A stretch of 64,000 nucleotides of DNA from a bacterium. Lineage in GTDB: Bacteria; Myxococcota; UBA727; JAUIJE01. The translations under genes and the position numbers were made by a program. Location: assembly GCA_030431455.1 (NCBI GenBank), contig JAUIJE010000011.1, positions 1 through 64,000 on the forward strand. The letters are read 5' to 3'. The notes beneath the pieces are model-generated. The model worked only from the letters and a program-made list of their open reading frames with translations. It did no database searches and was not told the DNA's origin. Within the stretch, counting starts at the first letter, position 1; every line of letters begins with the position of its first letter. Positions 32,922-58,456 of the stretch are shown here, in pieces.

Positions 32922-34241
32922 ATGGCCTGTGTCGCGCTGTTTTGTTCATTGTGGGTCGGGCTGGCCCCGGCCCAAGCCCCGGCGGTGCCGTCAGCGGGCG
33001 CGGTGGCGCGTCCGGCGCCCACCGGGTCGTTGGCGGTGTGGGTCGACGCGGTGGCCACGAGCCTCGAGGCGCGGCTGGTCGCCGAAGGGGCCCGGGGCCC
33101 GGTGGCGGTGGCGATCACCGCGGGCCGCGGGCTCGACGGGGACAAGGTCCGGCGGGTGCTCGGGCCCCGGCTCAAAAAGCGCCTGGCCCAGGGCGGCATC
33201 ACCAACGTCGACGAGCGGTCGGGCTTGACCGTGCGGTTGGTGGTGTCGGTGGACGCGGGCAAGCTGTGGGCGGTGGGGCTCATCGAGGGCGACGATCTCG
33301 TGGCGCCGACGAGCTTCGCGGTGGATGCGTCGTTGGACCGCGAGCTGCAGACCGTGTTCGGCGCGGGGGCGACCGCCAGGGGCCGGTCCCGGTGGCAGCT
33401 CGAGGGGCTCGGGGTCCTGCCCGCGGGGGTGCTCGACGTGGTGTGCCTCGACGTGGACGGTGACTTCGCCGACGAGATCGTGGTGCTCAGCCTCGAGGGC
33501 GTGACCGTGTACCGCTACACCGCGGGGGTGGGCGCGCCGGAGAAGGTCGGGTCCACCGTGGCGTTGCCGGCCCAGCCGGCGGGCTGGCCGCGGGTCGTCA
33601 CCGGTTGGTTGGCCCCCTCGGACAAGGACAAAGAGGTGGTGCTGGCCACCACCGCCGGCCATCACCTGGCCGTCGACTTGGTGGGCCACACCGTGCGCCC
33701 TCACCAGGAGGGGCGGGTGCCGCTCAAGGGCCTCGGGCCCCTGGGCACGTCGGTGACGTGGCTGCGCGGCGGCTACGCCAGCCCCTTGCTCGCCCTCCCC
33801 GCGCGGGGGGCGGACGGCCGCAAGCTCACGTTGCCCCGCATGCCCGATCGCGTACGTGACCTGTGGCGCACCAAGCGCGGGGTGGTGTTCGTGGCCGAAA
33901 ACGGTCAGCTGTTCTTGGCCGACGACGACGGGGTCGCCCCGCTGTTGTCCCAAAGTCGCATCGGCGACCGGGTGTTGTTGGTCGATCTCGACCTCGATGG
34001 GCGGCTGGAGGTGGCCACCACCGCCGCCACCGGCGAGGGTGAAGCAGACACATTGACGTTGACCCGCCCGTTTTCATCCCCGGGTAACGAGGGGCCGCTG
34101 TTCCGCAGCGGGCTGTCGGGGGGGAGCGTGGTGGCGATGGGGGTCGGCGACGTCGACTACGACGAACGCCCCGATTTGCTCATCGTCGAGGAGACGGACA
34201 GCGACGAGGCCCTCCTCTGGCGGCTGGAGTACGCCCCATGA
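32922..34241 (+). CDS. Secreted protein with FG-GAP/VCBS-like repeats
   Basis: 439 residues, signal peptide ending near PAQA. The N-terminal third (about 40-160) is an alpha/beta region of no known family. The rest contains blocks of the type VCLDVDGDFADEIVVLS, VDLDLDGRLEVATT and GDVDYDERPDLLIVE, the Asp-rich turns of FG-GAP/VCBS beta-propeller repeats. Probably periplasmic or surface-exposed. First gene of a four-gene operon whose members overlap by 4 bp. A TACGCT hexamer lies 9 bp before ATG 32922 and no ribosome site is seen, so the mRNA may have almost no leader. Confidence 0.75.
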   Translation: MACVALFCSLWVGLAPAQAPAVPSAGAVARPAPTGSLAVWVDAVATSLEARLVAEGARGPVAVAITAGRGLDGDKVRRVLGPRLKKRLAQGGITNVDERSGLTVRLVVSVDAGKLWAVGLIEGDDLVAPTSFAVDASLDRELQTVFGAGATARGRSRWQLEGLGVLPAGVLDVVCLDVDGDFADEIVVLSLEGVTVYRYTAGVGAPEKVGSTVALPAQPAGWPRVVTGWLAPSDKDKEVVLATTAGHHLAVDLVGHTVRPHQEGRVPLKGLGPLGTSVTWLRGGYASPLLALPARGADGRKLTLPRMPDRVRDLWRTKRGVVFVAENGQLFLADDDGVAPLLSQSRIGDRVLLVDLDLDGRLEVATTAATGEGEADTLTLTRPFSSPGNEGPLFRSGLSGGSVVAMGVGDVDYDERPDLLIVEETDSDEALLWRLEYAP

Positions 34242-56156: not shown

Positions 56157-56858
56157 ATGAGCGATCACCGCGGCGCCAGCACCACCAACGACGAGTCGCC
56201 GCGCCTCCGCTATGTGGTCGTCGAGGGCTGCATCGGGGTGGGCAAGACCACCCTGACCAACATCCTCGCCGAGCGCCTCAACGCCAAACGGGTGATGGAG
56301 GTGGTCGAAGAGAACCCCTTCTTGGCCGATTTTTACGCCGACCAGGCCGCCCACGCGTTCAAGACGCAGATGTTTTTTCTGCTGTCGCGCTTCAAGCAGC
56401 AAGAGCAGATCATCCAGACCGAGCTGTTCGAGGACGCGGTCGTGGCCGACTACATGTTCGCCAAGGATCGCATCTTCGCCGAGCTCACCCTCACCGGCTC
56501 GGAGCTGTCGCTGTACGACCAGGTGTTCCAGGCCCTGCTCGAACGTGTCCAGGTTCCCGACCTCGTGGTCTACCTCCAGGCCCCCCTCGACGTGATCCTG
56601 TCCCGGATCAAAAAACGCGGCCGCAGCTTCGAACAAGACATCGACCCCGGCTACCTCGAGGACCTCGTGGGCTCGTACCAGCGGTTCTTCAAGGACTTCG
56701 ACCGCTGCCCCCTGCTCGTCGTCGACACCGAAGAGCTCAACTTCCCCGGCAGCGACGCGGCGGTGGACCAGGTGATGCGCGCGTGCCTCGACACCGTGCG
56801 CACCGGCGGCCACCGCCGCCTCACCACCACCGACGCGCGACAGCCGCGGCTCGTGTAG
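56157..56858 (+). CDS. Deoxynucleoside kinase (dGK/dAK family)
   Basis: 233 residues, cytoplasmic. P-loop EGCIGVGKTTL (about 23-33), a Glu-rich catalytic segment VVEENPFLADFY, a DRS-like motif replaced by KDRIFAE, and a lid with Arg (RIKKRGRSFEQDI). It phosphorylates deoxynucleosides in salvage; the closest pattern is bacterial deoxyguanosine/deoxyadenosine kinase. GGGGAG before ATG 56157. Followed by an unusual hairpin-rich spacer. Confidence 0.9.
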   Translation: MSDHRGASTTNDESPRLRYVVVEGCIGVGKTTLTNILAERLNAKRVMEVVEENPFLADFYADQAAHAFKTQMFFLLSRFKQQEQIIQTELFEDAVVADYMFAKDRIFAELTLTGSELSLYDQVFQALLERVQVPDLVVYLQAPLDVILSRIKKRGRSFEQDIDPGYLEDLVGSYQRFFKDFDRCPLLVVDTEELNFPGSDAAVDQVMRACLDTVRTGGHRRLTTTDARQPRLV

Positions 56859-57343
56859 TTGAGGGGGGATGTCCCATCCCTGGCAATGCTCGCATTGCTT
56901 CAGGCGAACTTCGTTCGCCCACCCTCAGAGCCTCACGGCTCGCAAGCTCGCCGATGTCGGCTGGCCATTCCGAAGGAATGGCTTCAGCAACGCGAAGCGT
57001 TGCCAGCTCACCCCCAATGTCGCTTCTCCAGGCGGCTCCGCCGCGTCGAAGCGGGTTGCATCCTGCGGATGCACTGGGCTGAAGAACGGCCGTCCGCGCG
57101 CGTGGTGGCGGACTCGAAGCGGTTCGCTGGTGGTGGTCGATGCTTCCTGCGAATACGCCGTTCCACCGCCGTGGGCGTGTGTTGGCGCGTCGACGCGGTT
57201 GCATTCAGCGGATGCAACGGGCTGAGGAGCGAATCGGACGTCGCGACCGTGCGTGGTGGGCGGGGCGGGAGCGGCGAAACCGTTCGTGGGGTTTTGGCAT
57301 CCAACGGGTCCTTCTCGAGAGGGCCCTCAGGTAGACTCCCCGC
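56859..57343. repeat. 485-bp hairpin-rich non-coding block with imperfect direct repeats
   Basis: No convincing gene. At least eight small inverted repeats stand nearly end to end: 56866-56880, 56883-56898, 56903-56919 (7-bp stem, TTC loop), 56928-56941, 56950-56961, 56964-56982 (8-bp stem, GAA loop), 56987-57003 (7-bp stem, GAA loop) and 57057-57073 (7-bp stem, TGC loop), with a variant of the last at 57199-57217. A segment of about 70 bp around the last two is repeated imperfectly (57042-57112 and 57187-57262). Short frames here have odd composition (Cys, Arg, Trp rich) and are not likely genes. The hemH -10 element closes the block. Confidence 0.75.
57332..57337 (+). promoter_or_regulatory. 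TAGACT -10 element of hemH, probable leaderless start
   Basis: TAGACT followed by CCCCGC and the ATG of hemH at 57344. The same hexamer with the same 6-bp spacing occurs before the gene at 62834. Confidence 0.58.
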
Positions 57344-58456
57344 ATGCACAAACGCGCCCTGCTCCTCGTCAATCTCGGCACGCCCGACGCGCCCACCGAG
57401 GCGGCGGTGCGGCCGTACCTCAAAGAGTTCTTGAGCGACCCACGGGTGGTCAGCATCCACCCGGTGGCGCGGTGGTTGTTGCTCAACCTCATCATCCTGC
57501 GCACCCGCCCGAAGCGGAGCGCGGCCGCGTACCAGAAGGTCTGGACCGAGGCGGGCAGCCCCTTGCTCGTCGAGAGCGAAAAGCTCACCGACAAGGTGCG
57601 GGCGTTGGTGCACCGGGACATCGACCCCGACATGCCGGTGGCGCTGGCCATGCGCTACGGCAACCCCTCCATGCAGTCGGTGATCGATCGCCTGTGCGAC
57701 GAGGGGGTCACCGAGGTGGTGTGCGTGCCCCTCTATCCACAGTTCGCCTCGGCCACCACCGGCAGCACCATCGAGAAGCTCAATGACATTCTGAACCACA
57801 AATGGACGATGCCCAGCGCCACGGTGGTGGGGGCGTTCTACGATCACCCCGGCTTCATCGAACCCCAGGCCGCCCTCGTCGAGGATGAGCTGCGCGACTT
57901 CAACGCCGACCACGTGTTGTTCTCGTTTCACGGCGTGCCCGAGGACCACATCCGGTGGGGGGACAAGTCGGGCACGCACTGCCTGGCCAAAAACGGCTGC
58001 TGCGACGAGGACGTGCCCGTCAACCGCCTCTGCTACCGCGCTCACTGCGTGCGCACCGCGAAGGCGCTGGCCGCGCGGCTCGGTCTCCCCGACGACGGCT
58101 ATTCGGTGACCTTCCAGTCGCGCCTCGGCCGCACCCCCTGGTTGCGTCCCTACACCGACGAGACCTTGGTGCGGCTCGCCCAAGACGGGGTCAAGCGCCT
58201 GGCGGTGTTCACCCCCGCCTTCGTGGCCGACTGCCTCGAGACCATCGAGGAGATCGGCATGGAGGGGCGCGAGGAATTCCTGGCCCACGGCGGGGAGGCG
58301 TTTTTCTTGGCCCCGTGTGTCAACGCCGACGACGGCTGGGCCCAGGGGTTGGTCGACATCATTCGCGACGCGGGCGGTTTTTCAAATCGGAAATTGGCGG
58401 TAGTGCAGGACGCACAACCCCGCGTGGCGGCGGCAGCCGGGGGGGCGCCGTCGTGA
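57344..58456 (+). CDS. hemH: Ferrochelatase with internal Cys cluster
   Basis: 370 residues. Inserts ferrous iron into protoporphyrin (or coproporphyrin in other lineages). Features: LLLVNLGTPDAP start, YPQFASATTGS, catalytic His in FSFHGVPEDH, and late metal-path Glu in CLETIEEI. Between the His and the second half lies HCLAKNGCCDEDVPVNRLCYRAHC, a cluster of Cys residues. Myxobacterial ferrochelatases are known to bind a [2Fe-2S] cluster with four internal Cys, so this enzyme probably does so too. It ends in an Ala/Gly/Pro-rich tail. Confidence 0.95.
   Translation: MHKRALLLVNLGTPDAPTEAAVRPYLKEFLSDPRVVSIHPVARWLLLNLIILRTRPKRSAAAYQKVWTEAGSPLLVESEKLTDKVRALVHRDIDPDMPVALAMRYGNPSMQSVIDRLCDEGVTEVVCVPLYPQFASATTGSTIEKLNDILNHKWTMPSATVVGAFYDHPGFIEPQAALVEDELRDFNADHVLFSFHGVPEDHIRWGDKSGTHCLAKNGCCDEDVPVNRLCYRAHCVRTAKALAARLGLPDDGYSVTFQSRLGRTPWLRPYTDETLVRLAQDGVKRLAVFTPAFVADCLETIEEIGMEGREEFLAHGGEAFFLAPCVNADDGWAQGLVDIIRDAGGFSNRKLAVVQDAQPRVAAAAGGAPS

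Follow-up and report, generated by a model that had tools for sequence, protein, structure and literature searches.

Hairpins that are conserved in structure and stand close behind stop codons in a single orientation are familiar from integron attC sites. Among dispersed repeats, REP/BIME elements are extragenic, lie mostly downstream of genes, form hairpins and occur in larger mosaics (PMC3733652, PMC12306157). Many E. coli REPs are located at most 15 nt from a stop codon, with effects on translation (PMC3733652, PMC12306157), and REPs at this distance stall ribosomes according to PMC12306157, which cites its reference 17 for the point. MITEs such as Correia/NEMIS and ERIC are short, non-coding and copied, and are transcribed with neighbouring genes (PMC3733652), and in Neisseria the dispersed repeats of DNA-uptake-sequence terminators form hairpins at gene ends (PMC2267715).

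The array studied here lies in the window (the whole 64,000-nucleotide stretch of DNA that was analysed) between a deoxynucleoside kinase gene (56158-56858, start approximate; PF01712) and a ferrochelatase gene (PF00762), both of which the preliminary description had named correctly. We counted eight perfect, non-overlapping hairpins with a stem of at least 5 and a loop of 3-4 bases at 56866-57073 (56866-56880, 56883-56898, 56903-56919, 56928-56941, 56964-56982, 56987-57003, 57032-57044 and 57057-57073), which bears out the number originally claimed, and the GAA/TTC triloops reported with them are present in three of the eight. In 2000 dinucleotide shuffles the hairpin number averaged 1.09 (1.1 when rounded) with a maximum of 6, ruling out that the hairpins arose by chance, and the summed stem lengths reached 51 in the array versus 35 as the highest value among the shuffles. 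Stretches of the array also top the whole 64 kb in hairpin density, and the folding z-score is -3.9 as RNA and -4.1 as DNA. The extent first given, 56866-57217, stands for the hairpins at 56866-57073 but not for 57075-57185, which is poor in hairpins, nor for the start, the true beginning being the stop codon TAG of the kinase gene at 56856-56858. Elsewhere in the window, seven short hairpins, mostly of 5 bp, are clustered within a predicted coding sequence (33704-34060).

Comparison with other copies from the same genome resolved the array into parts, all on the + strand. The kinase gene ends with the last codon GTG, and the first base of the array is three bases past its TAG, the leader being 56859-56860 here and usually about 4-8 nt and pyrimidine-rich in other copies. 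Hairpin C (GAGGGGGGATGTCCCATCCC...CCCTC; 56861-56926), delimited by alignment with an uninserted copy (C28:70968), has its 3' arm split by a first twin-hairpin insert of 41 nt (56881-56921), in which TTCA joins the hairpins at 56883-56898 and 56903-56919. Domain D (56928-56962; covariance model R2 match at 56926-56966, E = 6.9e-8) consists of an outer stem GAGCC/GGCT, an internal loop TCA/ATGTC, an inner stem CGGC/GCCG and the apical loop TCGCAAGCTC. It is followed by a second twin-hairpin insert of 44 nt (56963-57006; model R1 match, E = 4.2e-17), where TTCA joins 56964-56982 and 56987-57003, and by a conserved spacer, CTCACCCCCAATGT (57007-57020), identified by comparison of copies including the C28 alignment. 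Domain E (57021-57053) has an outer stem CGCTTC/GAAGCG, an internal loop TCCA/GTC, an inner stem GCGGC/GCCGC and the loop TCC, and hairpin F (TTGCATCC-TGC-GGATGCAC) occupies 57056-57074. A second, partial copy of the unit's E/F end makes up the final 30-40 bases (57186-57225), with the end of E, F and the start of the tail; it forms an 83% direct repeat with 57054-57088 and includes a one-mismatch match to hairpin F at 57199-57217.

A blastn search matched the array at 57 places in its own 7.7-Mb genome. Model R2, built on domain D, found 57 copies at E < 1e-4, with the next match only at 0.099; about 20 of these loci had not been used in building the model, and those that were read share the layout of the unit. 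Model R1, built on the twin hairpin, returned 80 rows at E ≤ 0.01, both-strand duplicates included. The order of the unit is constant (leader, hairpin C with its G-rich and C-rich arms, domain D, C-rich spacer, domain E and hairpin F), and C-D-E-F without inserts spans roughly 110-160 nt. In general, domain D runs as outer stem, TCA, inner stem, loop TCGCAAGCTC and A-GTC, and domain E as outer stem, TCCA, inner stem, triloop and GTC. Hairpin F occurs as TTGCATCC/GGATGCAA, elsewhere as TCGTATGC/GCATACGA, and in further variants. Two or three units stand in tandem at several loci. Tandem units also occupy two contig ends (C6:56-413, with a 159-nt period, and C20:18-57); the assembly therefore seems to break in unit arrays, and the copy number is probably underestimated. 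A genome search for the same architecture, suggested earlier as a check, thus revealed more than 50 copies, and like REP/BIME elements the array fits a palindromic-repeat element dispersed in intergenic DNA, one of the explanations offered in the preliminary description; support comes from the many related genomic copies and from a pair of nearly identical copies whose upstream genes are unrelated. The remains of a repeat expansion had been proposed as well, and tandem expansion does occur at some loci.

The near-identical pair, C12:148755 and C5:89824, shares 98% identity over 205 nt, and the genes upstream of the two copies are unrelated to each other. Their identity begins at the C before TAG, one base ahead of the stop codon. 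CTAG or TAG motifs at both ends of several TAG-type units suggest a possible target-site duplication, and no terminal inverted repeats were seen by eye at the ends of the 205-nt copy. The twin hairpin is an independent element of 41-45 nt and not part of the C-D-E-F unit. It is present twice in the window copy and leaves empty sites in other copies: C28:70968 lacks the 41 nt that split the 3' arm of C in the window copy, as well as the roughly 44 nt between D and the spacer. At C12:148724 the twin is located inside domain E, and a unit on C27 holds one twin in C and another in E. A tandem run of twin hairpins with a period of about 43 nt was also seen at C16:114.38-114.80 kb.

For the analysis of pairing, domain sequences were gathered through their unpaired motifs, not through their stems; R1 was built from pairs picked for perfect hairpins, and its covariation is therefore biased and was excluded as proof. 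In 30 sequences of domain D, both-sided changes affected all five outer pairs and two of the four inner pairs, giving 64 double-change cells versus 30.5 when shuffled, and sliding the partner by one column lowered the paired cells from 85% to 34-40%. Across 16 sequences of domain E, 94.4% of cells were paired versus 72.7%, and double changes were found in 9 of 12 pairs (34 cells versus 11 shuffled). These compensatory changes across genomic copies confirm the earlier impression that structure is more conserved than the bases. Over the stems of C, D, E and F, with the register set from Watson-Crick pairs only, 1080 of 1158 cells were Watson-Crick, 11 were G-U and 21 were A-C, whereas 30 tRNAs from this genome, their stems taken in fixed geometry as a control, had 30 G-U and 0 A-C. 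Since RNA folds tolerate G-U and the units show no excess of G-U over A-C, pairing appears to be maintained at the DNA level or equally on both strands, although an RNA hairpin under very strict constraint might in principle look alike. These pair types do not support a structured RNA of the usual kind, also proposed at the outset, and no Rfam family matched the array above its gathering score. A weak Rfam match to mir-671 at 57096-57178 (E = 0.042, far below the cut-off) is regarded as chance.

To describe the position of the units, 53 domain D hits were read with their flanks, with genes predicted from open reading frames and codon bias. A same-strand predicted gene of at least 150 aa lies directly upstream in 40 of the 53, and the hits without one are mostly second or later tandem copies; 40 of about 43 primary units begin a few bases past a same-strand stop codon. 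The distance from stop codon to D is mostly 26-29 nt, and greater in units that hold a twin. Reversed orientation was seen in none of the primary units, and only about three are not next to a detected stop codon. TAG is the stop codon of 25 of the 40 unit genes versus 54 of 165 other genes at the same loci (p = 9e-4). The last codon ends in C or T in 36 of 40 versus 94 of 165 (p = 5e-5), and its middle base is A or T in 38 of 40 (95%) versus about 46% of the 165, so that the codon ahead of a unit is almost always N-A/T-Y; the GTG of the window kinase conforms in its middle T but does not end in a pyrimidine. Five more units with a variant D, outside the 40, likewise follow a gene whose last codon is NWY. 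The genes concerned are diverse (PheS, DnaJ, H+-PPase and dNK among varied Pfam families), and Pfam found no transposase among the proteins upstream of units. The stop-codon rule, the structure of the unit and the nested inserts had all been overlooked in the preliminary description.

Two simple accounts of the position were tried and rejected: target-site preference as its sole cause, as only 28% of non-coding WYTRR sites are stop codons, and coding or read-through past the stop, as frame 0 stays open about as long as the other two frames (medians 80, 77 and 71 codons for frames 0, 1 and 2). Three loci deserve mention in their own right. At C18:415.84-416.33 kb, convergent genes carry one unit each (415901+ and 416264-), leaving a long inverted repeat between them. 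At about 189.4-189.5 kb of C24 (L221:2150-2800), two tandem units stand directly behind a fragment of about 48 nt that resembles a tmRNA 3' end (RF00023, 19.6 bits, below the family cut-off of 47) and is possibly the attachment-site remnant of an integrated island. At C18:682126-682464, a unit that is among the few without a detected stop codon ahead shares its region with a separate repeated stretch (around ACCAGGCATAGCTGATGCACACATCTCTGTGATGTCAGACGCCGA, present twice).

Searches for an enzyme and for relatives were made in the same genome and beyond. The RAYT/Y1 transposase model PF01797 had no match in the genome (96.9% complete) and matched 5 of 14 control genomes; a Y2 search matched in none of the control genomes. 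The integron-integrase model TIGR02249 gave hits only below the cut-off, likewise in all 14 control genomes, and the best of them (C23:24.9 kb, 410 aa) looks, from its sequence, like an ordinary Xer-type recombinase. No DNA match to the array was found in 38 relatives, nor in plasmids and phages, and the exact twin pattern was absent from the genome_contigs and viral contigs in a search that may omit the source genome itself. Among 194 other genomes of the phylum there was no convincing match of the unit: R1 gave single weak hits per genome (E 3e-6 to 9e-4) and R2 at most two (E 2e-4 to 1e-2), which, judged without their surroundings, were taken as chance. A diverged homologue elsewhere could have escaped these searches. 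The hemH genes of named genomes are about 50% identical at best. The relatives listed include none from the same genus or family and are too distant for a strain comparison.

Copying, dispersal, gene-end bias and hairpins together place the unit near the REP elements. Our favoured reading, held with confidence and doubt about evenly balanced, is that the array represents one copy of a mobile hairpin cassette that is REP-like, non-autonomous and specialised for gene ends; a REP-like element of this form looks to be previously unreported. During copying, the hairpins would be recognised by some enzyme as folded single-stranded or cruciform DNA. Once placed, the unit would be transcribed together with the gene before it and form the 3' end of that mRNA, with hairpin C starting inside the stretch covered by the terminating ribosome; the position would be retained as tolerated or useful there. 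By analogy with E. coli REPs, we infer that the C-D-E-F series may act on termination by slowing ribosome release, may set and protect the mRNA 3' end, or both. In a bolder form of the cassette reading, which we think unlikely, this class of mobile DNA would depend for its insertion on the stop codon itself (target N-W-Y-T-R-R), would be recognised as a folded strand of DNA, and would supply each recipient gene with a ready-made 3' end controlling ribosome release and transcript ending.

Alternatively, the unit may chiefly be a functional RNA that closes the mRNA at its 3' end, as a terminator lacking a U-tract, an exonuclease barrier or both, and that was duplicated between genes as useful. 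We consider this doubtful but worth serious thought: the strict sense orientation and gene-end position, upstream genes as diverse as for a general terminator, convergent genes each with their own unit and unpaired loops conserved amid covarying stems all speak for it, whereas G-U is not in excess over A-C, and the window copy is without a T-run terminator (0 sites with a GC-rich hairpin and T-run in 56700-57500). A classic terminator set a few bp past a gene was moreover almost completely repressed in E. coli (PMC4824070). Since a terminator so close is expected to be weak and the T-run is lacking, we favour the REP-like cassette; any action it has would be on ribosome release and the mRNA end. 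A purely selfish repeat with no gene effect, stop-adjacent only as other insertions were lost, would also suit the recent copying, the nesting of inserts and the duplications in tandem; insertions deep in intergenic DNA or reversed between convergent genes should, however, be harmless too, yet no primary unit is reversed and only about three lie off a stop, and the last-codon rule is left unexplained, making this improbable. We give still less credence to compensatory changes from hairpin-templated mutation (template switching at palindromes), with the arrays as mutational debris of a repeat, although the mostly perfect Watson-Crick stems without G-U preference and related twin hairpins carrying the loop as GAA or TTC agree with it; TCA/AGTC of domain D and TCCA/GTC of domain E, the internal loops, are unpaired and conserved while both flanking stems change, and the position is not accounted for. 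Finally, a hairpin starting about 4-8 nt past TAG or TGA might promote read-through as a stop-codon recoding element, but the leader length, hence the frame, is variable, and we find this scarcely credible.

The units provide a natural set of more than 50 gene ends in which a modular element follows the stop codon at an almost constant distance and the last codon obeys a strong rule. With this set one can ask directly whether stop-adjacent repeats act on the termination of translation, on that of transcription or on nothing but their own spread. In addition, the tRNA-calibrated comparison of G-U with A-C is a simple way to tell RNA-level from DNA-level conservation of hairpins in repeats. When compared to known systems, the unit resembles integron attC sites in its structure-conserved hairpins near stop codons and single orientation, but the genes it follows are spread over the chromosome, on most contigs, and the integrase-model hits were all below the cut-off. 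Neisseria uptake-sequence terminators are likewise dispersed hairpin repeats at gene ends; in them, identical short oligonucleotides are arranged as inverted pairs, whereas here the sequence diverges, the structure persists and a T-run is absent after the window copy. Like MITEs, the unit is short, non-coding and copied, but obvious terminal inverted repeats were not seen by eye and the CTAG duplication is only suggested. REP/BIME elements and REPINs are alike in being dispersed, extragenic, hairpin-forming repeats, mostly 3' of genes and in mosaics. The twin differs from them as two different hairpins in tandem, not inverted copies. REP/BIME palindromes of 20-40 bp carry a GTAG or CGTC tag at one foot; no constant tag was noticed at the hairpin feet among the twins listed. 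In contrast to REP/BIME, whose GTAG class is associated with a RAYT gene, no RAYT-type Y1 transposase was detected in the genome, and the element here has four domains, exceeds 100 nt, conserves its internal loops, and keeps strictly to the sense orientation and to the neighbourhood of the stop codon.
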